A program made the translations under genes and the position numbers. Shown one piece after another: positions 25,277 through 50,765 of a DNA stretch of 64,000 nt (the first letter of the stretch is position 1; each line of letters begins with the position of its first letter). Below the pieces are notes generated by a model. The model was not told the DNA's origin. It was given only the letters and a program-made list of their open reading frames with translations, and did not search any database. The stretch is from assembly GCF_019578655.1 (NCBI RefSeq), contig NC_063257.1, positions 9,114,001 through 9,178,000 on the forward strand, read 5' to 3'. The stretch comes from Ricinus communis. Taxonomy: Eukaryota; Streptophyta; Magnoliopsida; Malpighiales; Euphorbiaceae.

Positions 25277-25795
25277 TCAATCATCCAACTGCTGAAGCTC
25301 AGCCTTCAACTGCTCAATTTTAAGCCCCATTGACCTTCGAAAAGCCGCCCTTTCACTATCCGGAAGCTTACCCAATAACCCATCAAACATGTCGAAAACT
25401 TCTTTAACAGCAGCACGTGCACATTCAGCCTCTTCATTGAAATAAACAGTCTCTTTGGATTCCATTGCCATCTCTATCTCCTCTCTTGCTTCTGCAAACT
25501 TAAGGTTTATCATATCCACTTCTTTATTAACATCCAACTCGGGAACCGGGCCACCTCCTGACTCAGTACTGTGATTCCTGAGAGCGTTGCAAGTTGGATA
25601 ACAAGAATGGAGGTCTTGGTGACGTGGGTTTGTGGAGAAGTAAAGAATTTTACGCGCGAGTGAGTTGGGAAATTGCGGAGTCAGAGTTGACGGTGCTTGT
25701 GATTTGAGGGAAAATGGAAATATGGGTTTTGGAGAACTTTGAAAAGGGTGTCTCAAAAGCAACTTGAAGAGAGAAATCTGTGATCGTTTATGCAT
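25277..25795 (-). CDS. Conserved small organelle-type protein, function unknown
   Basis: Single exon. I choose the ATG at 25793-25795 (172 residues) because MHKRSQISLFKLLLRHPF starts an Arg/Ser/Leu-rich, acid-poor N-terminus typical of mitochondrial or plastid targeting. The upstream in-frame ATG at 25877-25879 would add 28 residues that weaken this signal. The second half, from ELDVNKEVDMINLKFAEA to the end, is acidic and strongly helical with heptad-like spacing, and ends KIEQLKAELQQLDD. The Met/Glu-rich stretch EEIEMAMESKETVYF looks like a conserved plant-specific family, but I cannot name a function. Its place between PDE338 and HGPRT orthologues suggests one of the uncharacterised Arabidopsis genes in the At1g71720-71750 interval; this is not checked. 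Confidence 0.65.
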   Translation of the reverse strand: MHKRSQISLFKLLLRHPFQSSPKPIFPFSLKSQAPSTLTPQFPNSLARKILYFSTNPRHQDLHSCYPTCNALRNHSTESGGGPVPELDVNKEVDMINLKFAEAREEIEMAMESKETVYFNEEAECARAAVKEVFDMFDGLLGKLPDSERAAFRRSMGLKIEQLKAELQQLDD

Positions 25796-26624
25796 ATCTT
25801 TTTGATATTTTAGTTCGATTTCCTCAGTAATGGAGACAGCAAGGAAGGAGAAGGAAGTTCTAAAACCCCTTCTTCCCATTTTTCAGGAGTAGATGGGCTG
25901 GGCTGAATGGGATATTGAATATTAAAAAATGGTCCATGTCTAGTGTGCTCTTTACAATGATCCAGTTTGGCACAGTTTCTTAAATCAATTTTTAGTTCTT
26001 TCTTTTTTATTCTTTTTATAAAATTGTTTAGATTTAACAGTCTTTGGGGATAGTTGAAAATTTAGCTTTTTCAAAAATTCAATTTTGAAATTTCAGAAAA
26101 AAAAAAATTAAAACTAGAAAAATCATAATTTCTACTCTAAAAGGTTGTGTCAATTAGGATTCTAATATTTTTCACAGCTTATACATAAATTTTCTAATGC
26201 TTTGTTTGCAGTTTTCTTTCTAGACCATAGGAGGAAAACCTTTACATTTCATCAAGAATGTGGTTAGAAGAATAAAAGTGAAAGTTAACACTTTCTTGAA
26301 AACAAAGTTATATTTGGAATTTTACACAAATCTTCCTAAGAGTTGAATGATGGAACCCTATATATTTCTAAGACGAAAGAACAATTGCAGCTAAATTGTG
26401 TGAAATAAATAAACAAAACAAAACATGCATAATCAAAGAGAAAAAAACAGCATTATCATAGTCAGTCACTGGTCACCACCAAAACCACAAACACCCTCTC
26501 CTCAGTTCTGCTTATCCAAAACCCTAACAAATCCTCCAAATCCAACAACCCCAGGTTCTATGTGTATATTATATACAGACTTCCGTATAATCTCACACAA
26601 TACAGGACCAACATCAAATTTCCA
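25796..26624. other. Divergent intergenic region
   Basis: Shared upstream region of the minus-strand organelle-type gene and the plus-strand 136-residue gene. It is AT-rich with an A-run near 26100. I see no clear regulatory motif. Confidence 0.4.
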
Positions 26625-27035
26625 ATGGCTCGCCAACTTCACCTGAAACAAATACCACTAAGCACATCACAAGCTGGCTTAGCTGCAACCACTCTTCTCT
26701 TGTGCGCCTTTGTCTTGTTTATGTGTGCTTCGCATTCCCGCAAATGGCGTCGCTTAGGTTCTTGCTATGGTTCCTCCAACCATAATCCTGTTATAGAACT
26801 TAACACTGACAATTTAATACTTAGTACAGGAGTGTATGGTGCTCGCAGTTGCAATAATGATGAACTATTGGTTAGTGGTGAACAGCAACAGCAAGGAGTT
26901 CCAGTTTGGCAGAAGAACATACTCATGGGCGGGAAGTGCCAGCTACCAGACTTTTCAGGTGTCATCATTTATGACTCTGATGGAAACATTGTTAACCCTG
27001 CAAGAAACCCTCACCCTTTACTCACCTGGAAGTGA
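26625..27035 (+). CDS. Small single-span plant protein, function unknown
   Basis: Single exon of 136 residues from the ATG at 26625. The in-frame ATG at 26562 would add 21 residues before the membrane segment. A hydrophobic segment at residues 17-36 is followed by basic SRKWRRLG, so the N-terminus is an uncleaved signal-anchor or a signal peptide. The C-terminal third, VPVWQKNILMGGKCQLPDF followed by SGVIIYDSDGNIV, looks like the conserved core of a plant-specific family. I recognise the pattern but know no function. The gene is convergent with RH39, whose stop codon is about 355 bases downstream on the other strand. Confidence 0.7.
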   Translation: MARQLHLKQIPLSTSQAGLAATTLLLCAFVLFMCASHSRKWRRLGSCYGSSNHNPVIELNTDNLILSTGVYGARSCNNDELLVSGEQQQQGVPVWQKNILMGGKCQLPDFSGVIIYDSDGNIVNPARNPHPLLTWK

Positions 27036-27391: not shown

Positions 27392-30300
27392 TCAACTACG
27401 CCTTAGGGATTCATTCTTCTTGTTAGAGGAAGAAGAGCGCCCTCTAAGTGGCACTACATTAAGCTTTGATGATGTAGATTTGACAGCATTGATCTTTTTA
27501 CTTGCTATTTTCTTGGTCAAACCTGGAGATGATGTTTTCCGGGAGATCTTCAGTGTCTTTGCAACTTTAACGGCCTTTACAGATTTTGCTGGAGTAGATG
27601 CTTTTCGAGATTTATTTACTGAGGATGCAGCCTTAGTGCTGTTTGTAGAAGATTTGTCTGCTATAGTGTTAATCTTGTTCTTTTGACTGGATAGTTTTAT
27701 CAATTTTGCTTTCTTCCCCTTCTGTTCAGTTATTTGAGCCCTGGCAATATCCCTCCGAACATTATCTGTAGTGAGGGATTCCAAGCTCTCATTCTTCCTA
27801 ATTGCCTCCTCAATTCGAGCAGCCAACTGCAAGTCCTTTTTAGCCACCAAGCTTGTCACTTTCCCTGTTAAGGAATAAGGGAACACCATTAGAACCTCCA
27901 AAACAAGAAAAAAAGATTACCACCAAAAGTGTAGAATTTCTTCACATATTAAAAAGAAAACCCTCTTGCCATCAAAAGTTAAAAGAAGGAAGCAAAGATA
28001 CAGTGTTGCAGGCCAAAAACTGCAAGATGCTTTTTCATTTTCCTAAGCTTTAAAAATTGAAATGAGGATACATTTTATTGGGGCTGCGGATATATTGATT
28101 CATAAATTGATGCTTGTTCTCAGAATTACTTGTACTTTCAGTACCTCTTCTTGGTAAGGCACAAATTGATCTTAAAACAGGTATTAGTTTATTTGAATTC
28201 ACAAAATTCTATGGTTTGAATAAATTTCCACGATCCGTACCTTTTGCACCCATACGAGCAGTTCTTCCTGTGCGATGAAGGTAATCAATCTAAAAGGCCA
28301 AAGAGAAAAGGTATATATTAATCTTTATTTAAAATTTTGTCCTAATGGACGGGCTACAAATAGTATCCATTCCCCTTCCTCAAAACCTCCAATCTAAAAT
28401 TTGAGCAGGATGTCCCTCCATGTCATTGAACTGAATACTAAAATTGGCAGCCCGACTTTCATATCGTAAAAGGACAAATCAATTAAAGAACCTGGAAAAA
28501 GAGGAAAAAAAAAAAAGGATGCTGAACTGAAGAAACATCAACCGAAGAAAGTCACTCACAGAGTTCAAGGGGAAATCAAACATGACAACGTGATCTACAT
28601 CCAAGTCAAGTCCCCTAGCAGCCAAGTCGGTGCAGACCAATGTCGGGCAGTCTCCATCATCACTCTTAAACTTCTGGAGATTTTCAACCCTGTCGTTATG
28701 AGGAATAATTAGCCAAGTACTAGAAGGAAAATGTTGTGCGCACACAAGATAACACATCAAATTTGGAAAGATCAGGAGGTTAAAGGGAAAGGGGCAGTGA
28801 AGGGAAGTAGATACTCTCTTTGATTACAGAAGAAAAATGGTAATAAGAAAGAAAAAGATCATATTTAACTAGTAGAAAAGTAAGGCATAGCCTCCTTTCT
28901 ATAAGATCTGAGCTTCTCTTTTGGACCGGAAGTATAAAAATATTAGGGAATGAACAAAGAAAGTGCTCTGGCACTTTGAAAGCTAATTTTTCTTTTTACC
29001 AAGTAGAGTGCCAATTAATAACAGTTTCTACATACAAAAGTATTTCTCATGATCTCACCTTTGTTCAGCTGGAACTTCCCCATGATAGTTGACAGTAGAG
29101 ATTTGATTTTCAGCAAGAAAGTGATCAACAGCACGGCTGGAATTCAAAGTGTTGCAGAACACCATCACCCTGTTTCCCTTTGCCAAACTTGGTTCAAGGA
29201 CCTAAATTCACCAGAACATGCTATGTAAATTTCCTTGGTTATATAAGGAAGAGACTATCTAATTCTCCGGAAAGGATCAATTTAAATCCTCTAATAGTTT
29301 CTGCTAAACCGACATATTTCCCCGGGGAACCCGTAAATACTTCTGCTACAAAAAAGGGTTGTGATAAGAAACGCTCAATTTTTCGTGCTCTTGCTAAAGT
29401 AGTTCTGATGATTCAATAATATTATTACTTCAATTCGGAGTTCTTAGTTACTACGACTGGATGAAAATCTTATTGATGGAATTCAACCAATAGCAGTTTT
29501 CTAAAAGTATATGACATTTCTTTAGAAAACCTGAAATGGAATATGCAAAACAATACTTGCTGAGTTTGCTAATATGCACAAGTACAAACTGCCACAGAGA
29601 GAATGACACCAGATCATTTCTCAAACTTACCAAATTCAAAAATCGCGGTGTAACGTGTATCCCCCTCCCGTTCCGATCATGGAATAGATGTCAAAAAGCC
29701 AAAATATAACAAAAGGCTCTCCAAAAGTTTTGTGCAAAAATTATTATCTGCGCTCTCTTAAAGTTTTGTCCAGTTAAGTGTAAGAAAGTAAAAAATTGAT
29801 GGTGGATCCATTATGATAAACAAGAACTTTGAATATGCTGGATGTAACAAGTAGGCTTGTTAACTAACTGAGACTGCATTTGGACTGTGATTTGCATCAC
29901 TGATCGTTAAGGTAAGAGAGGAGAGGAAGATTCAGTTGTAGAATATGAGTTCTTTCTCTAATCGTAGAAAGAATAAAAAGGACAAACAATTTTTCATGCC
30001 TTCACGGCTAATAGAAGTGTAGGTTTACCTATGTTTCACCAACAATAATGTTATGAACTATACATACAATGCACACATGTTAGCATATGCTTAGCGCAAC
30101 GGTACAGTAGAGCAGACAGCAGTTAACCTGTAACAGTGCTTCCAGCTTGTTTTCAGAACCTGAAAGTTTTATAAAATCATGGCGAGCAGATGCTATTTTT
30201 TTATGCAGTGTTGATGTGCGCAAATGGACTATTCCTTGAAACTCCTCATCAATCAGCTTTTGAACTGCCTGCAAGACCTCTATAAGGTTAACTCTACCAA

Positions 30301-32148
30301 TAACTGAAAGCTAAAATCTGAGCAGAAAAGAGTTCATTAAATTCATGAAATTGAATCAATATCAATTTCATGACTTTACTAGACTAGACAAGCTTCAGAA
30401 ATAATAACAATGGACCGAACGTAAAAGCTATGGAGGGCACATATGGATTCATTTCAAAAGTGAAGAGAAGAAAAATAGCATAATTTCATTACATTACAGT
30501 GGAAGGAAAGGGAGAATTTAAACCTTAACTACAGAAGATAAAGTACTTCTCATCTTTACAGAAGTGGTCAAAGCCAGTATACCTTTGTCATTGTTGCAGT
30601 GACCAAAATCGTTTGAAACCCTAGGCCATCAGGTTTTGATGCACGATTTTTTAATGGGCCCAGAAACTTCCTAATATCAGGACCAAAGCCACGATCAAAC
30701 ATGGTGTCTGCCTCATCCAATACCTACTAAAAAATTTGCAACATCATGAAGTGCCATAAAATTATTGTGACAACCAGAAGTTACTGGAACTGAATCCAAC
30801 ACTGTGTCAAATATTGATATGAAGCATTAATATTCAGGTTTTAAATCCTTCCAGTACTTAAAAATCAAAATTCGTTGAAAATATTGGATCTCACCAAGTA
30901 TTTTATGTCACCATAAACCATATTCCCATCCTCAATATGTTGTAGAATCCTGCCAGGGGTCCCAACTATCATATCAATGGGGCTATTTAATGAGTCTTCC
31001 TGTGGTCGCATTCGGCCACCGCCACTGACCATGGTAGACCTGAATCGGGCGTGATGACTGATAGACTTTGCCACACGAAAGACCTGTAAAACACATACAA
31101 TGTTATCAAGTGAAAGATTGAAGGCCATAAGGATTGAGAGAGCTCCATATCCCAAAGTAATCCAGAATACCTGTTCAGATAGCTCTCTCGTAGGGCATAG
31201 AACAATAGCCCGAGGACGCCTAGGCTTCATTAACAGACCCAACAATGCTTCATCCCGTCTTAGCAACTGCCAAGGCAAGAAAAGAAAGGGAATTTTCTTT
31301 TCATTCACATGTCACAATTTTTTACACCAATGAAGTACAAGCAAACAGAGGCACAAATCAATTCAATGAACTCACTTATCTGTCATATCTTCAAACATCT
31401 TTCAAGTTTCAACCACCCAATTCAACAAATACGTTTTTATCAAATTTAAAATAATATCTTTGATCACCTGAAGTCAGAAAAGTACGATGCCATACTTTTA
31501 AAATCACTTTTATTGCACTAGCCCAAGACTACCAAATTGCAACAGTGTTATATCAGAAGCACATAACCAAAACAAGAAGTCAATCAAGGGACAAAGAGAA
31601 CTAACCTGAACAAGAGGCAGCATATAAGCCAAAGTCTTACCAGACCCAGTATGAGACCCCAAGACTACACTTTTACCATCCAAAACAGCAGGAATCCCAA
31701 TACACTGAATCTCAGTAGGAACCTCAATCTCCATTTCTCTAACAGCACCCATTACCTCATCACTCAAACTCAACTCCTCAAAACTACCCGCAATCTTTTT
31801 TCCTTTCTTTGACTTGTTAAAGCTATCATCTTTTTCAGTCTCAACATTAACAACTAACTTTGTTTGGGTTTGGGTTTGGGTTTTGAGTTGTTGGGTTTTT
31901 GAGGAGTTCTTGAGGTGTCTAAGCCTGAGTCTTTCTAAAAGGATTGAGTGCTTTGCTTGGTCTGGGTCTGAGAATGTTGTTGTGGTGGATGTTTCAGTAC
32001 CTGTGGCTGAGGCAGTGGTGGTGCAAAGGGGTTTAAAGTTAAAACGCAGTAAAACCCTGCTGGGTTTTGGGAATCTAAGAAAAGGGTAATAGTGCTTTGT
32101 TGCCGTGGAGAGAGAGAGGCTCAAGAGCGTTCTTGATGTGCCTGCCAT
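27392..32148 (-). CDS. RH39: Plastid DEAD-box RNA helicase RH39
   Basis: Nine exons read from high to low: 31606-32148, 31171-31266, 30895-31083, 30583-30723, 30128-30268, 29059-29201, 28560-28689, 28241-28289, 27392-27864; all GT-AG, 634 residues. The Ser/Thr/Arg-rich N-terminus fits a chloroplast transit peptide. Helicase motifs are intact: Q-motif region [10 protein letters not shown], motif I GSGKT (Lys171), Ia PTRELSEQ (206-213), Ib TPGR (255-258), II DEAD (279-282), [16 protein letters not shown] and [11 protein letters not shown] Lys/Ser-rich tail closes the protein. The Arabidopsis orthologue RH39/NARA12 (At4g09730) is needed for introducing the hidden break in plastid 23S rRNA. A diverged copy lies 940 bases upstream in the same orientation. 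The intron between exons 5 and 6 contains an atpB-like plastid fragment. Confidence 0.9.
29247..29398 (-). pseudogene. Plastid atpB fragment (NUPT) inside an RH39 intron
   Basis: On the minus strand about 150 bases encode [20 protein letters not shown], then [15 protein letters not shown] and LILSGELDS. This is the highly conserved C-terminal part of the plastid ATP synthase beta subunit. The match ends near 29247 in AGTCTCTTCC, where a two-base insertion relative to an intact reading shifts the frame, and near 29398 just before the upstream residues. It lies in the intron between RH39 exons 5 and 6, in the same orientation as the host gene. The flank at about 29400-29480 may be another organelle piece, but I could not identify it. 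Confidence 0.8.
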
Positions 32149-33087: not shown

Positions 33088-33258
33088 TCAAGATCCTGAT
33101 GCAAAGGAGTCAATAGCCTCGGCCATTTTCTTCTTCAGAGCATCTGAGGACTTGATAATCTCAAACGCCTCCATCTGGTCTATCTTCAACACTATTGCAG
33201 TCACTTTTCCGGCATTATCATGCTCAAGACGCTCCAAAATACCACTTTTTCCCAATAC
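33088..33258 (-). other. MLLE/PABC-domain exon of the RH39-like gene
   Basis: This 56-residue exon shares with the PABP last exon the LG near the start, ERL, D, KVT, L, DQ, I, S, D, LKKK and AEA in the same order and spacing, with a two-residue gap near the start. Both exons follow a phase-0 intron placed directly before the [MV]LG. DNA identity is clearly partial, so the copy is not recent. Confidence 0.75.
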
Positions 33259-35105
33259 CTGTCCATTTTAAATGCGCAATAACACTTCGTTAGAAATTCT
33301 AAAATACAATACAAGCAAATTTACACGGAGATCCCAGAAGCCCGACAGGAATAACTTCTGTCATTTCTAAAGATTACAGTGCAGGTATGTACCTCTGTCA
33401 TTGTATCAGTAACTAAAACAGTTTGGAGTCTTTGATCATTTGATTGCGATTTTCGATTTTTTAATGAACTTATAATCCTGCTGATTTCAGGACCAAAGCC
33501 ATTATCAAACATGGCATCTGCATCATCCAATACCTAGAATTACAGTGCAACTGTCACTTAACTAAGGAATGTACTTCATATAAGGACACTCACATTTTTC
33601 CTTTTAAAGACTACACAAAGTAAGAATCTTTCACTCATCAGAACTAGATGTCAAAATTTGCATTGATTGGTAAAATGACAACAATTTATAATAAACAATA
33701 GGATCCTCACCAAGTATTTGATATCATCAGTTGCAATGCTTCCCTCCTCAATTTGCTGGACAACCTCAAAAGGTGTTCCTATTAGCATTCCAATAGGGGG
33801 TTTTGACATATTCTCTGGAGACAGATGATCAGAGCCACTTCGGCTTAGTCGTGCAAAATCGCTGATAGACTTAGCGATGCGAAATCCCTTCATGGTCATC
33901 CAAAATCATGGTCAAGTTGATCACTATATGTGTCAGAAAACCACAAAGCAAATTGATACAGGTGCTACAGACCTCATCAGATAGCTCCTCTGTGGTGCAT
34001 AAGACAATAGCTTTGGGTTGCTTAGGCTTCATTCCAGACAAAGCCTCATCTCCTCTCAACAACTGCACAATAATGACAACAAATTATGACCATATTATTG
34101 TAAGCTTTTCAAGTTTAGCGCTGAAACATTCTGAGCAAAATTGTGGACTAGTGATTTAAGTATCTACCCTAAACCCTAAATATATGATGGTTGGGGTTGA
34201 GGAAAGATGACAAGAGTACCCGACCACATATATGATATTTGAGACCTTATATTGCAACATATTAAGTACAAGTCAGCTTAAGGTGAAGATGAAGCAAAAT
34301 TATCTGATAAGATATTATAAAAATGCATATTGACTAAATTTAGTATAAAAGTAGAGTAGCTGGAGATCTTAATTTGGAAACACTCCAAAAATATAAGCAA
34401 GCATGATAGAACCTTCAGAAAAGCATATTATCAATCATTTGACATGCAAAACTCATAGAAAGACTAGATATAATGAAAATCAGGAAACAACTTACAAATA
34501 ATCACATTCCAAACTCAGATCTTTTCCTAAATTACACGTGTGGAAAAGCAAATGAAAACGGAAGGAATTGCATAAAGTAATGGCATTTAAAAAAAAAAAA
34601 GAATTACTTGAACAAGAGGTAACAAGTAAGAGAGAGTCCTGCCAGACCCAGAATTTGAACTCAAAACCAAACTCTTGCCTTCCAAAATAGCAGGAATACC
34701 AACACATTGAATTTCAGTAGGAACCCAAACACCCAATTCACCAGCAGCCATTGCCACTTCTTCTTTCAAACCCAACTCTTCAAAACCAGACACCACCTCT
34801 CCTATACTCGCCTCACTTTTGCTCCCAACTACTACATCAGCACGACAATTTGACCTTTCCTGTTGCTTGGTAGTTGTTGCTATTGTTGTTTTCAAAGAAC
34901 CCTGAAGTTTTCTCTGCCTAAATTTTTCAAGAATGAAAGAGTCTTTCTTGGATTCTTTCTCCTTACTCTCAGTTGAGACTCTAGTGGTGGTGGTGGTGGT
35001 GGTGGTGGAGAGAGCCCTTAAAACCGAAAGCTGTCTGATGGGTAGTGGTGGATGTGATTGAGAAGAAAGAGCTAGATTGACGAATGCTTTGAGTGTTCTT
35101 TTCAT
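33088..35105 (-). CDS. RH39-like pseudohelicase fused to an MLLE (PABC) domain
   Basis: Five exons from high to low: 34608-35105, 33973-34062, 33711-33887, 33393-33533, 33088-33258. All junctions are phase 0 with GT-AG sites, giving 358 residues without internal stops. The N-terminus is Ser/Thr/Arg-rich (organelle-like). Residues about 110-302 align exon by exon with RH39 domain 1, and exon 4 is 141 bases in both genes. The motifs are changed: motif I is GSGRT (Arg156 for Lys), Ia TTEELSDE, Ib TPFEV, II DDAD (258-261), III TDT. Domain 2 (motifs IV-VI) is absent. Exon 5 (303-358) reads VLGKSGILERLEHDNAGKVT and continues to LKKKMAEAIDSF, an MLLE/PABC domain like the last exon of the PABP gene at 47571-47789. 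The MLLE signature itself has changed (KVTAIVLK for KVTGMLLE). It is probably not an active helicase; peptide binding is uncertain. A transcribed pseudogene is the alternative. Confidence 0.75.
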
Positions 35106-36790: not shown

Positions 36791-38031
36791 TTATCTCATT
36801 TCAGAAGATGAACCCAGATTCTCTTCTGCAACAGACACCAGATATTTGCTATCAGAATTTCTCGCGGAGCAATTGGCACGAATCTCCCCTTGATTGCCTG
36901 TCAGCACATCCATTTGCCCCATTCTGATCATGGAAAGCACGAACTTCTGAAAGAACAAAGTTTCGTTAGCAGCAAAGCTAGTAACAATGGCCCTTGTCCT
37001 TGCATCCGTGTACAAATCTTGGTCGGATGTAAACAGACCCTGACGGTTTATGAGGTCTACATAGTACTTATTAACAAATATGTTAGGAGACCTGATGTCC
37101 AAGACTGTGGTATTATGTGTTTCTGCTTGTGGGCACGTCTGCTTCAGACCATTAGCAAAAGTATTGTCCAGAGTGGGATCCTGTGATGGGTATAGCCGGT
37201 CGGTGAAGGATGTGCAGTGGCTAATGCCAATAGTGTGGCCGCCTGATAGTGCCACTGCGTCAGTGGCATCAAGCCCTTTTCTTGCAAGCTTGTCAAGAAT
37301 TGTTGTCGTGTTAGCAAAAGGTGCAACTAGATGTTCAAAAGTTGCATTTGTTTCTGCAAATTTTACTCCATCTCGCCTTCCTAGTGGGACATTATAGTCA
37401 GGTCCACCTGTCTGTAACCCGAAGAACATAATTCTATTTCATTGATATAGAACAATAAAAGAGAAAGAAAAAGATAAAAGAAAAGGAATGGCGGGAAGGT
37501 GTTTGTTTACCAAGAAAACAGAATCACGAGCAGCGACTGCAACAATATCGGAGCAAGAGACCACACGGCCACACCGCCTATGAACACGCGCTCGGAGATC
37601 ATCGACGATTTTGAAAGACTCTTTTCTCAAAGATAAGTTAGGAAGCTCAGATTTCTCACTTGGCCCACCTGCTGATCCATCCAGCAACACTGATCCATCG
37701 CATCCCTATATTATATGTTTATTTTATATGCATCCAGAACAGAGTTTGCTCAAGAACATAATCAAGTGCAGAAAATAGTTACCATAACAAAGCAGTCGTG
37801 GAAGTGGAGACGAAGCAGGCCAGCAGCTTGACCAATGTCCTTCCTGAAGATTTTCTGGAGCTCTTTCCTGACAATGAACTCAAGTTTAGGACAGCTAGAT
37901 CTGTAGAATGTCCATGATAGACCATTCACTATAGGTGGTCTGCTTTGTGCTTCAGTGGTGCAAAAGCAAAAAGCTAGTAGTAAGAGAGAAGAGATCCCGA
38001 GGAGAGAAGCCATTGATTTAGCACTAGCCAT
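36791..38031 (-). CDS. Class III secretory peroxidase (PER12 type)
   Basis: Three exons from high to low: 37783-38031, 37511-37705, 36791-37411; 354 residues. A signal peptide (about 1-28, ending TEAQS) precedes the mature enzyme. The distal-heme segment RLHFHDCFV with the catalytic Arg/His, the proximal-heme segment ALSGGHTIGISHC, and cysteines in the usual positions are all present. Such enzymes oxidise phenolics with H2O2 in the cell wall. The nearest protein I know is Arabidopsis PER12 (At1g71695), which lies in the same syntenic block. The residue after HDCFV is Met (from the last codon of exon 1) where most family members have Gln; the splice is otherwise regular. Gene structure is complete. 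Confidence 0.9.
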
Positions 38032-38734
38032 AGTTGTTTGTCTGTGTGCTCTAGATGCACAAAGAGCTCTATTTTATAGTCATAAAATGTTTATTTTAAT
38101 GTTTGTGTGTTTAGCTGTTCTAATAAAAGAATTATCTTAATGATTTATGTCACTGGTACTCATGGTAAATATTTTTATCTTTTAGTGTATATAAGTTTTA
38201 TTATTATTACAATTTTTATAAATTATTAAACCCACTATGAATAATATGATTTATATATATATCTTTATTAATAAAAATTTATAAAAGATATATAATACCT
38301 TCCAACTTAGTTCAAATATAAAAAATGTATATTTTTCGAAGTGAGAAGTTTTGGATTTAAAAGAAAGTTAATTGTCAAAAGTTGTATTAAGGAAGAATTA
38401 CTTTTCAATTTGGGTGCCATATTTTTAATAGCACCAAGCTTATGAAAATAAAAAGAATGGATTTATAGGAAATATATAACTCAATTATGGTGATAGTTTT
38501 CTTATAGAGTGATTTTAAATATTAAGGTAAGCCCCCTATCCTTTAGAATTCACCAAACCTGTTGTACTCATTTTTGTTGCTGCTTTGAACCCACATCCAC
38601 ATGTAGCACGAATCATTGCTTGCCCGCGGCACAAAAATAGTTTCAAAAGGTGTTTTTTAAAAGTAGGGTATGAATCATTAACTTTAGGAGTGACTAAAAT
38701 CTTTAAAAAAAAAAAAATGAAAAGTGAATTAATT

Positions 38735-42316: not shown

Positions 42317-44266
42317 TCACTGGTAATATTCAGGCTTCAAGACGCCAACATAAGGCAAATTCCTATATAGTTCAGCAAAGTCCATTCCGTAACCCACAAC
42401 AAAGTAATCTGGGCACTGCAAAAGGAAAATAAAGGAAAAGAATAACTAATAATTAAGGAAAAAAAACTCCATTCAATTTCCAATATGTCACAGGTAATCT
42501 TTGCTTATGGTGAAGGTAGGAAGCTAAAAGTAACATCAATTCACAACCAAAATAAAAAAATCTTGTTGGAATGCACCCGCAATAATGAAATACCTTTAGT
42601 GGTATAGTGGTAGACGGTTTCCAAGGAAATAAGTTGTCAAAAGAAAGTAACGAGCCTATGAGTCTGATCATTTATCTCTAGATCAGGGTCTAGGAAAGTA
42701 TAGCTTTGTAAATGGTACAAACAAGTTATCCACTTCTACCAAAGCAGAGCAGATATATTTACAACTAAAATATTTCCACAAATTGGGATGAAATTTGATA
42801 TTGAAAATTGAAAACAGTGGTTTGTGCAAAGTGAATTCCCATAATATAATATAATCGGGAAGACATTTGTTAAAATGAAGGACAATTGAGTAAAATACTC
42901 TTGTGACATACTTCTAAAAATGCAGTAAAGAGCTTGATAAAGCAACAAGCACCATAGAACATACATTTTAAAACCATTCATGAAAATCAAGAAAGACCAA
43001 TAAACATGGCAATTCTATGCTCCTTAGGTAGTAAATTAGAATGGACTGTTCAATATCAAATAGCAATGGACATTGTTAATTACCAGGTTGAGGAGTTGCA
43101 ATTACATGACAAGGGAGTAGTAGTTAGCTAGTCACTCATTGATTGAATGTGAGCTTTAATTCTAGTAAATTCCAAATCACAAAGAGAAATAACAATGCAA
43201 AATTAGGTTAGAGAAGTTTCCGGATATCTGTCAAGGTATGCATAATCATAAGCTTTTTGTGCACGCAAATGGAGAGGGAAAGCATACCTCAAACCCTCTA
43301 TAGTATTTTCCATCACCCAGTAGTTGAAAATGAACTTTCCTTCTAGCTGGCTTGTCAAGAAAAGTGCAAACCGATACAGAACTTGCTCCTTTGGATTCCA
43401 AGTGTGAAATGAGGCTAGATAAAGTGCTTCCTGTATCCACAATGTCTTCAACCTAATACAACCTCATCAGCAATCATATATCATCAAAAAACATAACAAC
43501 ACTCCAAAAGCAGTAACAATCAAAATAATAAAAAGGTACATTAAAAAATTTTAAACAGAAATAAGACTTGATTTTAGACAATACAAACTGTTGGCAGAAT
43601 CTTAGGGTGTGTTGGGACTACTGTTGGGTGTTGAAAGAAAGAAGTTTGAAATTTTTTAATTTAATATAAATTTTTTTAAAATTTTTTATAATCTTGCTGT
43701 TATCAAAGATGCACGAAAATTTACCTTCGTTTTGGAAAAATTATATTCAAAACTCAAAAAATAGTATAAAGTAAAAATTGATGTTGGAAAAGCCTTAATC
43801 TTTTAGCTTTTAGCCTTAATCACCACCTCTAATTACAACACTATCCTTAAATTAGTATTCTTTTTCCATTGCCATGTCAAACCAAAGCATGAATTCCAAC
43901 ACAAATTTTATCAATTAAATTACAAGAATCTGAAGCAAAAATGGCCAAAAGGTAAGTGGGTATTACCAGAATGACGTGTTTGGCGTTCACATCGAGCTTT
44001 AAGTCCATGGAAATGGAAGGGGAACCGGAGGACTCGGTGCCAGAACCGTAGGATTCGGCGCGAACGAAATCAACGGAGACAGGCAACTGAATTTGCCTGA
44101 CTAAGTCAGCCAGGAACAAGAAAGCGCCAGTAGCTACGCCAACTATGATAGGGGGAGGTGAAATGGAAGCAAAATCGTTAGAGATTTGAGAGGCAAGTTC
44201 TGTCACTCTTTTTGAGATTTGGAACTTCGTCCATAGCACTTTCTCTATGTGCGAGTCCATTGCCAT
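42317..44266 (-). CDS. HGPT: Hypoxanthine-guanine phosphoribosyltransferase
   Basis: Three exons from high to low: 43967-44266, 43288-43452, 42317-42415; GT-AG, 187 residues. The PRPP-binding loop [10 protein letters not shown] begins exon 2 (residues 101-110), the hydrophobic beta-strand before it is KHVILV, and exon 3 has the [21 protein letters not shown] segment that shapes the purine pocket. The enzyme converts hypoxanthine or guanine plus PRPP to IMP or GMP in purine salvage. There is no targeting peptide, so it is probably cytosolic. A second ATG at 44258-44260 (MDSHIEK) could also be the start. The Arabidopsis orthologue is At1g71750, in the same syntenic block as PDE338, PER12 and PAB5. 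Confidence 0.92.
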
Positions 44267-45630
44267 TCACACAGAGACAGAGCGCTAAGGACTGTAACTA
44301 TCACAACACACCCCTCGAGCAAATGGCCTTCTGTCGAAGGGTTTATATGCATAGGTACATGCTTAGACCTGCCGGTTCCAACTTTAAACTGGACCCAAAG
44401 CGAACGTATCAAATCCAAAACCCTCCAGCTTGTGATGGATTTAATTAAATTAGAGGGTGTGATTAATTTAATTTTTCTTAGAAAAGTTATAGTTTTCATA
44501 TTTTTTAATTTTAAAATTTAATTCCTTTCGCTATATAAACCAAAACCCAATTGGAATCCAATTGTAACAAACTTGAACTATAAACCGATCCTGAACCATT
44601 ATTAACTTTTTGACTATGAACTGCACTTTTTATATGCGAACCGGTTTAACCTTTTCCATAAACCTTAAACTGATGGTCCAAAACCGGTCCCATACTGATT
44701 CAAGCCTATGCCTAGGTCTAGGTATGTTAGTGGCTTGGGCTTATACAATAATAAGGTTAGGTTCATATATATATATATATATATAATGCTCAAGACTGGA
44801 ATGTATCTAAAGCAATAATTGTATTTATTATTTGAATGTCTAAATGTTAACCATTCATAGATTGTGGTTTTCTATTAGTATGAAAGCTTTCAAATCTAGA
44901 AAATCTTACTCAACATCGTATAGATAAGATGACAAAGCTCACATTATAACTCTTAAAAAAATGTTTTACTATTTGTATTAATAAAAAGAATATAAAAGAA
45001 TATTTAATTTAATTTGAAAGCTTCCAAAAATAATAATTCACAGTCATCAATCTACATGAATAATCTTCTAAATAATGTTCCCCTGATAGATAAGTACTCA
45101 CAATCATAAACCTACACAAATAATCTGTCTTAAAATAAATAAATAAATAAATAATATGGGAATAAATATGAGTTTCTTTTAATTGCTTAATTATGGAATA
45201 TATAAGGGTAGCAGTAAATTAAATGTAGTTTAAGAAATACAGGGACCGAATAGTAATAGAACAGATCTTAGGGTGTCAAATAAAAAGGAACGTTAACATC
45301 TAATAAAAATTTAATGGTAAAATTAGATGGAAAGTTTTAGTTAGAATTGTTAAATTGAGAAGAAATTTAGTGTGATAAAACAAATACAGGGATGCGTTTG
45401 TGACAATGGCTTAAAGTACAGGAGTCAAATAGTAATTAACCCTCTGAAGAAAGTGAGAGCAAGCGTCTATTTATTGGATTTAACAAAGCTCAAATAGTAT
45501 CAATCCAAAATTATTGGCGCCAAAATCCCTAAAACTTAAAAAGAAAAATCCTCAAAAAATCAAAACAAAAACCTCTCAAGGCGAATCGAATCAACCCAAT
45601 CGAAACAAGAACAACACTCAGTTGCAGAAA
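44267..45630. other. Divergent intergenic region
   Basis: Between HGPRT (-) and the MRNIP-domain gene (+). It contains an ACCGGTTT-rich block (about 44560-44700) like the other AACCGG repeats, an (AT)n run at 44766-44785 and an (AATA)n run near 45140. Confidence 0.5.
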
Positions 45631-46905
45631 ATGTCATCTACAGTATTCATCGCTGTTCAATGCTGCCAGTGCTCAACAATGCAGGCAATCTTCTTCTTCT
45701 CTCTCCGGCATGTCTAGAATCAACTAAATTAAAAAAAGGGGGATTTTATTTTTTACTTCTATTTTTACAGGTGAAGCAGAGGAAGAAAAGCAATAATAAG
45801 TGGACATGTGCAGTGTGCAACCAGAAGCAATCTGTAATAAAAGTGTTTGCTCAGGGTTTTGTGGCTAAAGACCTCCGCAAGTTCGTTCAATCTTTCAACT
45901 TGTCCCGCAGCTTCTCCGAAAATCTCGGACAACTTGAAACCCTAAATTCTTTTACTCCATTATCCTCTGAGGATTGCCAGCGGAAAAGGCGCTCTGATTG
46001 GAGCGAGTATCTTGATCATGAAGGTGATGCAAACAACGACAAGTTTAAACAACAAAATCAAGAAGAAGAAGGTATATGATGATCTAGTTTGGGAAAATTT
46101 CTCATTTTCTGATGGAGATTATGGTGTATAATTGTTTTCTTTTTAATTTTATTCTGAGTGCAGCAGATGATTTTGGGCCAAAGATTGTGACAGAGTTAAC
46201 AAAAGAGATGTTTAAGAAACCTAAGTTGAATTATGATAGTTGGTTTGATAGTAATAACTCGTACAAAGCTGTCTTCTCAAAGATGAACACTACCAACCAG
46301 CACCTCTTATCTCAAGGTAATTCAATAATTTCCGAGGAAATAACTTGATAGGAGCTAAATGCAACTTTTGCAGAATGTGCACTACTTGCTAATAGCTTCT
46401 TCCTAAATTCTTTATGTGGTTGCTTGAAACATTCTGAAATTGCTTGATGCAGTAGGTTGTTTATTTAAGATAATGCAAAATATGTTTACTTAGAATCACT
46501 AAAGTTTATACGTCCACAACTTAAAGTTCAGTGTCTTAACTTAAAAATTGAGTCCTCAAGATTAAGGTTGCCTTTTTCCTTTGCAACCCTTACTACACAT
46601 TTAATTCAGGCATGTCTTGAAATGCAGGGAAAGAAGGAAAGAAAAATGTCTTTGCAAAGGTCACTAGCACTTCAAAATGGAGTGATTGCACGACAGGAAA
46701 ATATAAGGAGCAGAGGACAGTGCAACCAACATTAGCAACAAAGGCTTCTAAATGGAATGCGTACATCACCCATGATGACAATGACATGGGTGTGCGAAGT
46801 GGGATAAATTTTCCAGATGATATGGGTCCATGCAGCCACCATGTTTGGGAGTCCATATCGGATGATCAGAAGGTAAAAGATGATATTCATCCAGACTTCA
46901 TGTAA
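45631..46905 (+). CDS. MRN complex-interacting protein (MRNIP) domain protein
   Basis: Four exons: 45631-45684, 45771-46071, 46164-46316, 46628-46905; 261 residues. The N-terminal domain has two CxxC pairs (QCCQCSTMQ, then WTCAVCNQKQS) with the spacing of the MRNIP domain. In animals this protein helps the MRE11-RAD50-NBS1 complex in DNA-damage signalling. Short W-centred repeats follow (SDWSEYLDHE, SKWSDC, SKWNAYITHDD), a pattern I also recall in the animal protein. I start at 45631 because the family begins a few residues before the first Cys pair; the upstream in-frame ATG at 45514 adds a Lys-rich stretch. The first intron needs a GC donor (CAG|GCAATC) to give the conserved join STMQ-VKQRKK. 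A GT donor downstream would insert eight hydrophobic residues. The plant role is not known to me. Confidence 0.75.
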
Positions 46906-47570: not shown

Positions 47571-50500
47571 TCATTCATTCAGCACCAATGAGCCAAGCTG
47601 GTCGCCAACATTAGCAGTAGCTTCTCGAAGAACTTGCATTGCTTCAGCCACCTTCTTTTTCAGAGAATCAGGAGACTCAATGAGATGTAGTACCTCTGTT
47701 TGATCCATCTCTAATAGCATCCCAGTCACCTTTGCCACGTGATCTGGCTGAAGCCTCTCCACAAGCGGATAAAGGTGATCACCCAGCATCTGAGTATAAC
47801 ACAACAGCAGATATGTTTCATCCGTGCATCAATAACTGCTATGTTTGCCATGCTAGTAGGAAAAGGAGTATTTTTACATTACATACCTCAGTCCGTTTCT
47901 CTGGGGTAGCAGAAGCCAATGCAGATGCAAGGGTTGAGATGGTAACTGGTGGCTGAACATCTACTGAAGCTCCTGAAACCTCAAAGGGCAATGGAACCAT
48001 GGGACCTGCTAGACCTTGTGGAACAACAGACGAATTCCCGCTGTTTCTTGCATTGCCAACGTATCTTAATCCTTGATTGTTGTTACGGTGAAGTAGCTGA
48101 AATTGGTACATGTACAAAATGCTTTATGGTACAGCTAATGAGAAAAAATGTCAGAACTTGTAACATATTTTCAAAATAAGGCACCTGCTGCTGCTGCTGC
48201 ATCTGTTGAGGGTTCCCCCCACGCCGCATCCCCATCCGTTGCCCAGGTTGACCCTGTCTTTGAAGGTGATATGGAAAGATAAAGTTTGGGCCAACAGCGG
48301 GGCGCATACTGGTCAAGATTTGCTGCTGGAAGCCATACCCTGCATGCTGAGGGGGCATCATACCAGGTGTCCCTTGACCAAAGTAAAGTTGCTGTGGTGC
48401 AAGCCTTGGTGCCCCTGCATTATAGCCAGGAATACCGGAAGGCAAAGGAGCCAGTGCACCAGGCGCTCGAACTAGGGCAAAATGGGCCTACATATAGATA
48501 CAATGTGCAGAAAATTCATTAGATTTCACAAGCAGAAAAACAGACATGTATGTAGCATATAAAGTAAAAAAAATGGAATACTCTACACCAAATTGGAAAG
48601 AGATTCTGTGTAATGTTTTCTACATAACTAGAAAAAATGTGCAATTGTAAAATAAACCTGTAGTCGAGCCTTTCTTTCTTCTTTGCGTTGGGCAATAGCA
48701 ACATAAAGAGGTTTCCTCCCAATCATCTTTCCATTCATTTCCTTCAGCTGAGCACCAATTCGTGATAGCAAATTATTACACAAGAAAGAATGTAAAAGTT
48801 GAGCTTAGAACTGATTTATAACTTTTTAAGTGAAAAAATAAATAGGAGAACAAGAGGAGAAATAAGAACTCACAGCTCTTGAAGCTTCCTCAGGGGTAGA
48901 GAAAGCAACAAAACCAGAGCCCTTACTCACACCTTGGTGATCAAGCATGACCTGAAAAATTATGTAGATATGAGAATACTCCAAAAGAAACTGATAACGA
49001 TAATAATGGCAATTACACAATAAATTCACTTAGATGTAAAGCAGACCTTGCATGATGTTATTGACCCAAATTCAGAAAACAATTCCTTCAGTTTCACATC
49101 ATTAATGTTGTCATCAAGATTTTTCAGATATAAATTTGCAGCCTTTAACCTTTCATATCTACTGTTTCTTTCCTGTTCGAACTTGGCTTTCAACTCTGCC
49201 TCCCGTTCTGATTTCCTTTGGGCCCTACCAACATACCAAGCTTTGTCATCATGGGCTGTGGTCCCATTCAGTTTCTCAACAGCGGCAGCAGCAGAATCTG
49301 GGTCCTGAAAGTTCACAAATCCAAATCCTCTAGACTTGCCAGTTTGATCCTTCATAACAAGTGCACTAGTTATGGTCCCGTAAACACCAAAAACTTTCTC
49401 AAGATCCTCATTGGTTATTGTCTCAGACAAGTTCTTAACATAAACATTAGTAAACTTTGGGGAACCATTTGTCCGAGTTCTCTCCTGTTGTCGTACAAAA
49501 AATCCAACATAAACTTGTTTATCATTTAAACACATGCCATCCAAGAAACTGATAGCTCTTTCTGCAGATTCCTCATTTTCAAACTGTACAAAACCATAAC
49601 CCTTAGATTGGCCATTGCTATCAACAGCTACCTTGCAAGAAAGGACTGTCCCAAAGGCAGCAAATGTCTCATGCAACAACTTGTTATCAAGAGTTGAGTC
49701 CAAGTTCTTAATAAAAACATTGCCATAGCCACTTTTTCTAATACTAGGATCTCGATGAGAAAACATAATCCTGATAGGTTTCCCATTCAAGGGAGTGAAA
49801 TTCAGAGCCTTCATAGCATTTGCAGCTGTAATTTACAATATAGATGGGTCAGCACTATAATTCACAGAAGAGAGAAAGTGATTACTAATCCAGTAGTAAA
49901 TTTAATCAACATGATCAAGTCCATAAAAGTGTGTGGTGTACATCTGTCATTCATCCAGAAAAATTTGAAAGAAAGATATATTTGAACAATAACATCCAAA
50001 CTCAGAATACCTTATAACAAAATTTTCTTAACATCTGCAGTTCCTTCAAACATCTTAATACCAGAAAGAGCAATCATTACATCATTCAAAAATATTAAAC
50101 AAAGACACAAATACTAACATTGAAAACACGCATTTAACTATTTAAACATTTTAAAAAATCAAATAAATAAGTTCAACTGCAATCTCATATATTCAGAATT
50201 AAGACAAAAAAAAAAAAAGAAAAAGGATTGGCACATACAAAACAGTCCTAAAAACAGACCAACGAAAATTTTAACACACTGACACTGAAATAATCAATAA
50301 CATAACTTCTCACAGATCAAGAATCAAACAACAACAAATATAACCATAGTTATCACGTTTACCACTAATATACAAAGAATTCAGCACATCATAAAAGCAT
50401 ATTAATCAAATCATGAGCAATCAAACAATTAAATGTTTTTTTTAAGAAAAAAAATTACCATCTTGAGGATTACTGAAATTCACGTAACCGTAACCAAGAG

Positions 50501-50765
50501 AAGATCGTTTCGTTTGATCTCTGCAAACCCTAACAGAAACAACTTGTGCTATTTGGCTAAAGAGATCATATAATTGTTCTTCATTCACATTCTGTTCCAG
50601 ATCCCCTACATATAATGATAAATTGGCAAACTGTCCACCCTCACCACTACCATTACCACCACCACTACCACCACCACTACCACCACCACCACCACCATTA
50701 GCAGCCACCGTCACAGTATCCACTGGTATCTCTGTTGTAGTAACTGCTGCTGCTGCTGCCGCCAT
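47571..50765 (-). CDS. Cytosolic poly(A)-binding protein
   Basis: Seven exons from high to low: 50459-50765, 49047-49825, 48874-48951, 48658-48747, 48185-48487, 47887-48096, 47571-47789; 661 residues, the usual family length. An Ala/Gly-rich N-terminus (GGT-repeat coded) precedes four RRMs with RNP motifs (LYVGDL and GYGYVNF in RRM1, VFIKNL and GYGFVQF in RRM2, VYVKNL and GFGFVNF in RRM3, LYLKNL and GSGFVAF in RRM4). Then come a Pro/Gln/Met-rich linker and a C-terminal MLLE domain (from residue 590; KVTGMLLE). It binds mRNA poly(A) tails and, through MLLE, PAM2-containing partners, controlling translation and mRNA stability. By position it corresponds to Arabidopsis PAB5 (At1g71770), although sequence class among PAB2/4/5/8 was not resolved. 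The 5' leader is T/G-rich on the mRNA strand. Confidence 0.93.

Follow-up and report, generated by a model that had tools for sequence, protein, structure and literature searches.

A truncated RH39-like DEAD-box gene fused in frame to an MLLE exon of poly(A)-binding protein type in Ricinus communis and other eudicots

DEAD-box helicase action needs the lysine of the Walker A motif and a second RecA domain, and the arginines of motifs Ia and Ib are RNA contacts in these enzymes. RH39 acts in plastids on the hidden break of the 23S rRNA, according to one account (PMC11731035). Devan and colleagues (PMC9249222) report that, apart from PABPC1, a poly(A)-binding protein (PABP), MLLE domains had been described solely in UBR5 and Rrm4-type proteins. 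The subject here is a gene of Ricinus communis, referred to as the chimera, in which a first RecA domain (RecA1) of RH39 type is followed by an MLLE segment. The gene lies in a stretch of 64,000 nucleotides (NC_063257.1, positions 9,114,001 to 9,178,000) that was analysed as a whole and is called the window. An initial annotation of this locus had restricted MLLE to PABP and UBR5/HYD-type proteins and had thereby omitted the fungal Rrm4 proteins covered by the same work (PMC9249222). The chimera would be a functioning gene, neither a pseudogene nor a gene-model error. Taken as one, the best explanation (probability roughly 0.6) is a working chimera that arose by tandem duplication, acts as a non-catalytic partner or competitor in the RH39 pathway and carries an MLLE end that is no standard PAM2 receptor. 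Its exons are as follows.

34608..35105, (-) strand: chimera exon 1, 498 bases; basic Ser/Thr-rich leader, conserved ILEKFRQRKL segment, Q motif and altered Walker A motif SNSGSGRT
33973..34062, (-) strand: chimera exon 2, 90 bases; altered motif Ia, TTEEL vs PTREL
33711..33887, (-) strand: chimera exon 3, 177 bases; altered motif Ib, TPFE vs TPGR
33393..33533, (-) strand: chimera exon 4, 141 bases; altered motifs II (LDDAD) and III (TDTMTE); end codon the same as that of RH39 exon 4
33088..33258, (-) strand: chimera exon 5, 171 bases, phase 0; an exon like the last one of PABP genes, with the MLLE segment (PF00658, 34.3 bits)

All five exons are joined in phase 0, each has a length divisible by three, and together they encode 358 residues; the introns are of the GT...AG type and there are no internal stops. 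Exon 5 alone matches the Pfam family MLLE (PF00658) at 2.4e-8 and 34.3 bits, above the curated cut-off of 27. The full protein matches MLLE at 5.5e-7 (29.9 bits, cut-off 27) and DEAD (PF00270) at 1.6e-23. These results bear out the initial annotation in its description of a degenerate RH39-like gene fused in frame to a PABP-type MLLE, and the hit falls to residues 303-358, where it had expected the PABC domain. The top sequence match of exon 5 in the PDB is a poly(A)-binding protein (2dyd, 1.5e-9). The second RecA domain (PF00271) and the RRM gave no match in the 358 residues up to E=1. A public Ricinus protein (P0001) matches the chimera at 99% across 100% of the query, and the 33393|33258 junction is predicted from public gene models and from relatives. 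An annotated Ricinus isoform X2 (P0002, named RefSeq XP_015579613.1) is without the exon-4 part, which carries motifs II and III; because the exons are all of phase 0, its frame into the MLLE exon is preserved and the MLLE end is kept.

The helicase part of the chimera shows changes that most of its members share. At the site of the Walker A lysine, 60 of 70 aligned chimeras have arginine, the Ricinus copy among them, compared with lysine in 38 of 38 RH39 proteins. The motif Ia arginine, again present in 38/38 RH39 proteins, is replaced by aspartate or glutamate in 62/70 chimeras, and the motif Ib arginine (38/38 in RH39) by glutamate in 69/70. Serine occupies the alanine site of motif III in 66 of the 70, a motif that is canonical in the 38 RH39 proteins, and motif II of the Ricinus copy reads DDAD rather than DEAD. 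Given the DEAD-box background, the loss of the Walker lysine together with the entire second RecA domain rules out helicase action. Weighing against so general a loss, the Walker lysine is kept in 4/70 chimeras and the motif II glutamate, canonical in the 38 RH39 proteins, in 53/70. The identical Arg-to-Glu reversal at motif Ib in nearly every chimera indicates selection, unlike decay. On these residues, the former RNA-holding surface is one that was made acidic and then maintained so, and this reversal would stop RNA binding. Judged by its RecA1 domain, which is closest to RH39, and by the common exon boundaries, the chimera is a descendant of RH39.

The same fusion was found well beyond Ricinus, as the initial annotation had thought worth searching for. 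When two lists are combined, at least 81 proteins, isoforms and fragments counted, carry both DEAD and MLLE: 55 among the best 120 of 200 matches in a protein search and 26 more among the best 120 of 230 matches in a profile search. Among the matches listed, double-domain proteins come from many rosid families, from Liquidambar (Saxifragales) and from Nepenthes (Caryophyllales). Among the same matches, none comes from asterids, monocots, Vitis, Rosaceae or Brassicaceae; a genome-by-genome search was not made, and loss is not claimed. An earlier alignment has 39 rows, with 16 of the 55 double-domain proteins omitted, and the later alignment, used for the counts above, comprises 70 of the 81 after omission of 11 isoforms, fragments and odd models. 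Both families are matched at E<=1e-3 in 70/70 aligned chimeras. In an unrooted maximum-likelihood tree of RecA1, built from a hand-picked set of 32 chimeras and 38 RH39 proteins, 32/32 chimeras lie to the same side of one branch (support 100/97), a split found in 98% of 200 bootstrap trees. The rows of Nepenthes, Linum, Cucurbita, Punica and Tripterygium are long and unsure in placement, and the chimera nearest the RH39 side is that of Liquidambar. Because the root is unplaced and five chimera rows are long, the tree supports a single origin and not its date; the taxa that carry the chimera suggest an age of core eudicots. In a tree of the MLLE segment (31 rows, 55 columns) the chimeras again stand on one side (91/87), a tree too short by itself for naming the donor. 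Continuous reading frames over the exon joins also occur on short assembled contigs, e.g. P0140 (296 residues, longest contig 1,344 bases), and these sequences look like spliced transcripts. That the chimera is an in-frame fusion with a single origin can be held as almost certain. A plasmid search (298 records) gave bacterial or DEAD-box-like matches as its best 20 and was uninformative for the fusion.

The MLLE-derived end has been altered in a different manner. With PF00658 above its curated cut-off and matches in all 70 chimeras, the segment is, by family assignment, of MLLE descent. A rejected candidate was an eroded last exon of RH39 converging on MLLE, prompted by an 11-letter stretch in RH39 exon 9; the near full-length PABP match and the PABP-type exon spoke against it. 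The residues of the PAM2 pocket were listed from the available part of a study of the LARP4B-PABPC1 structure (PMC7356810), the PABPC1 numbering of the chimera being our own mapping, and were compared with nine plant PABPs, including three Ricinus paralogues and three Sesamum sequences. Site 567 is tyrosine in 9/9 plant PABPs, compared with serine in 54 and tyrosine or phenylalanine in 6 of the 64 chimeras that have a residue there. Threonine at site 582 (9/9 in plant PABPs) is found in merely 10/70 chimeras, and glycine at 583 (9/9) has become alanine in 67/70. Site 597 is isoleucine, leucine or methionine in 9/9 plant PABPs, compared with threonine in 42/70 chimeras; proline at 600 (9/9) is kept in 9/70, with leucine in 44/70. 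Pocket A/B sites 567, 582, 597 and 600 are thus altered in most of the 70 chimeras. These residues make loss of standard PAM2 binding likely, and the segment is probably under selection in some capacity other than that of a standard PAM2 receptor. By analogy with Rrm4, an altered peptide preference may be considered.

In an alternative reading, the MLLE end has kept its five-helix fold and its function as a peptide receptor, and the protein is an adaptor bringing PAM2-type proteins to RH39-like partners. Several observations that weigh against loss of the receptor speak for such an adaptor: the Pfam match is universal among the aligned chimeras, the Citrus segment is 70% identical to plant PABPs over 90% of its length, and pocket residues Leu586 (62/70), Leu603 (70/70) and Lys580 (31/70) are kept, as is E592 (70/70). 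In addition, the three positions that are most conserved in the signature helix, 579, 583 and 587, recur at every fourth residue, as on a helix. The adaptor has to contend with sites 567, 583, 597 and 600, which are changed in most chimeras and are uniform in kind in the nine plant PABPs, and with an import-type leader that would separate the chimera from cytosolic PAM2 proteins. It is considered unlikely. The "PAM2-peptide-binding module" of the initial annotation is not supported, since several pocket residues are changed in most of the 70 (586 and 603 being kept) and neither of two AlphaFold2 models shows an all-helical MLLE end.

In both models the MLLE end is folded as helix, strand, helix, helix, and the MLLE signature helix KITGMLLE is predicted as a strand. 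A fold switch can be derived from this, in which the PABP MLLE exon would now supply the last helix and last beta strand of the truncated RecA1, with KITGMLLE turned from helix to strand, and would have kept a rescued pseudohelicase in service, in mitochondria or plastids, for roughly as long as core eudicots have existed. Such a switch is doubtful as things stand, and it counts against it that the joining of the strand to the RecA1 sheet is itself deduced from the models. Conservation and hydrophobicity along the signature helix were also analysed for periodicity, with helices and strands of RecA1 as yardsticks, of which the strands lacked a clean signal. Two fold searches returned helicase entries throughout and no MLLE entry among the best 50 rows of each, which excludes nothing.

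The N-terminus of the chimera indicates where it may work. Within the first 35 residues of 35 chimeras (35 of the 39 members of the earlier alignment, four with an extended or missing N-terminus being omitted), 216 basic, 18 acidic and 332 Ser/Thr residues were counted among 1,225, a count of composition only. Such a composition is what an import leader would be expected to have; the leader appears to be of the organelle-import type, and an organelle location is fairly likely. The product would thus consist of an import-type leader and a RecA1 domain without the ATPase and RNA-contact residues, with no second RecA domain. On the simplest mechanism, the chimera could take part, without catalysis, in the pathway of organelle ribosomes in which its parent RH39 works, either as a partner of RH39 or as its competitor; its RecA1 would still hold the protein partners of RH39 but have no grip on RNA. 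Probably no standard PAM2 receptor any more, the MLLE-derived end would close the truncated RecA1, as AlphaFold2 suggests, and present a new helical surface. This role in the RH39 pathway is offered tentatively.

Both probable parents are found beside the chimera in the window; the initial annotation made no mention of the PABP gene, the likely donor.

30128..32148, (-) strand: intact RH39 exons 1-5 (32148-31606, 31266-31171, 31083-30895, 30723-30583, 30268-30128), with canonical GSGKT, PTREL, TPGR and DEAD
27392..30127, (-) strand: remaining RH39, with the second RecA domain and C-terminal tail that are absent from the chimera
47571..50765, (-) strand: PABP gene and likely donor, 7 exons, 661 residues, RRMs and MLLE; three RRM stretches matched in the single RRM-bearing exon that was scanned
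47571..47789, (-) strand: PABP last exon, MLLE at 88.4 bits, preceded by a phase-0 intron and starting MLGDHLYPL

All three genes lie on the (-) strand, in the order PABP, chimera, RH39. The PABP gene lies 12.5 kb upstream of the chimera on the same strand, and the RH39 start codon (32148) comes 939 bases past the chimera stop codon. The first four exons of the chimera and of RH39 have the same end codons; past exon 4, the chimera continues into the MLLE exon and RH39 into its second RecA domain. Chimera exon 5 starts where the PABP last exon does and in the same phase (VLGKSGIL in Ricinus and MLGEQLSSL in Citrus vs MLGDHLYPL), and two other Ricinus PABP genes have AG directly preceding the same codon. 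Five places in the Ricinus genome (315.5 Mb) match MLLE, with six matches in all and the chimera included; the second-best match besides the chimera itself (91.2 bits, window 47628-47795, (-) strand) is the last exon of the linked PABP. At the DNA level the PABP and chimera last exons are 65% identical over 127 bases (2.2e-5). Judged at the class-specific sites 601, 605 and 572 against the other two Ricinus PABPs, the chimeras mostly follow the class of the linked PABP: site 601 is aspartate in 54/70 (glutamate in 6), 605 lysine in 49/70, and 572 arginine in 24/70 and glutamine in 1/70. Tandem order is also in keeping with the locus numbers, which are close together for the chimera and RH39 of Diplodiscus (0133100, 0133200) and for those of Jatropha (22266, 22268).

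A route can be proposed in which PABP and RH39 were once neighbours on one strand and a tandem duplication, reaching from the last intron of PABP as far as intron 4 of RH39, kept both parents whole. It would have placed RH39 exons 1-4 and the PABP last exon between the parents, joined via a hybrid phase-0 intron. Such a duplication yields the order PABP, chimera, RH39, the whole parents and the hybrid intron. With the linked PABP as donor, this route is well favoured. Three further genes bear on it:

43877..44266, (-) strand: initial portion of a phosphoribosyltransferase gene that lies upstream of the chimera
36791-38073, (-) strand: peroxidase gene, its later part matching PF00141 at 7.8e-45; it separates the chimera from the phosphoribosyltransferase gene
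45540-46079, (+) strand: MRNIP-type gene (PF15749, 7.8e-14), between PABP and the phosphoribosyltransferase gene

The PABP exon might instead have been brought to RH39 by ectopic recombination or transposon capture, the nearby PABP being coincidental. What weakens tandem duplication lends weight to such a route: the phosphoribosyltransferase, peroxidase and MRNIP genes now separate PABP from the chimera, the order PABP, chimera, RH39 is established in one species, Ricinus, and by identity the linked PABP does not stand out. The MLLE segments of the 70 chimeras have a mean identity of 27.4/51 to the C6 PABP and 26.8/51 to the linked PABP; a Salvia PABP sharing the linked-class residues reaches a mean of 30.8, and the linked PABP of Ricinus has changes of its own. 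Against coincidence stand the few MLLE matches (six at five places in 315.5 Mb), from which the chance of one of four lying within 15 kb is estimated at about 4 in 10,000, before strand or order is considered. Another route is quite improbable. In Dipteronia, one gene model (P0008) joins a phosphoribosyltransferase-type enzyme directly to the chimera front, so part of the neighbourhood seems common to Malpighiales and Sapindales. Comparison of the DNA flanks gave no convincing homology between the downstream flanks of PABP and chimera, nor between the upstream flanks of chimera and RH39.

Elsewhere in the Ricinus genome, a divergent MLLE is divided between two open frames some 250 bases from each other (C10:15389114-15389531), a further PABP-like gene or a remnant. 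Two open frames in the window, 25277-25882 (-) with 201 residues and 26433-27035 (+) with 200 residues, have no Pfam match at E<=1e-3.

The chimera could also be an unconstrained relic, formerly working and now decaying in Ricinus. The MLLEs of the Ricinus and Euphorbia chimeras do look more divergent than others and have long end branches in the MLLE tree, and several RH39-bearing plants are without a chimera among the matches listed. Decay is nevertheless very unlikely in view of the open frame, the intact splice sites, the 99% match to a public protein and the motif Ib reversal, which points to selection. A chance join made by gene prediction, with a truncated RH39 copy beside an MLLE-like exon and the two never co-spliced, is highly improbable, for even though the copy is the direct neighbour of RH39 and the MLLE match in Ricinus is a weak one (34 bits), the same fusion is present in at least 81 proteins of many plants and frames run unbroken over the junctions on short contigs resembling spliced transcripts, the introns of those plants being unseen.

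The working chimera favoured here is apparently undescribed in print as a RecA1-MLLE architecture. No paper on a DEAD-box/MLLE fusion was found among the papers listed from the open-access literature, judged by title, opening of the abstract or selected passages, most subscription journals being outside that scope. The available parts of PMC4574140, PMC3176755 and PMC12787238 are not about such a fusion, and "pABC" in PMC3176755 is a construct name. The new architecture proposed by the initial annotation stands within that scope; it is not peculiar to Ricinus, and chimera proteins are already deposited in sequence databases, often under RH39 names. Both probable parents still lie beside the chimera in the Ricinus genome, so that the emergence of a chimeric gene can be traced from breakpoints to function. 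Next to PABP, UBR5 and Rrm4, the chimera is one more protein in which MLLE-derived sequence occurs, in this case probably within an organelle. Whether an exon taken over ready-made can switch fold and so complete a different domain can be tested on it directly. The RH39 name also calls for caution: in several crop genomes, one of the proteins that bear it is incapable of helicase action.

Among known systems, the plastid DEAD-box helicase RH39 (NARA12) resembles the chimera in leader type, Q motif, RecA1 and exon boundaries 1-4. Unlike RH39, the chimera has no second RecA domain, its Walker A, Ia and Ib motifs are changed, and an MLLE segment stands at its end. Plant PABPs with a C-terminal MLLE share the single last exon with the same start residue and phase and are up to about 70% identical in the segment, whereas the chimera has no RRM match, several altered PAM2 pocket residues and an import-type leader. 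Rrm4 and UBR5 have MLLE outside PABP, as the chimera does, and the first short helix that the chimera lacks is also absent in MLLE2 of Rrm4 and in UBR5, according to the available part of PMC9249222. They differ in that Rrm4 carries three MLLEs beside RRMs and UBR5 is a HECT ligase, a helicase part being described in neither. Tig2, a truncated trigger factor in plastid ribosome biogenesis, is a shortened paralogue with its own role in the pathway of RH39, as reported in the available text of PMC11731035. Its fold is unrelated and no fusion is involved, so the likeness is one of analogy only, and Tig2 indicates that truncated paralogues can gain separate roles.
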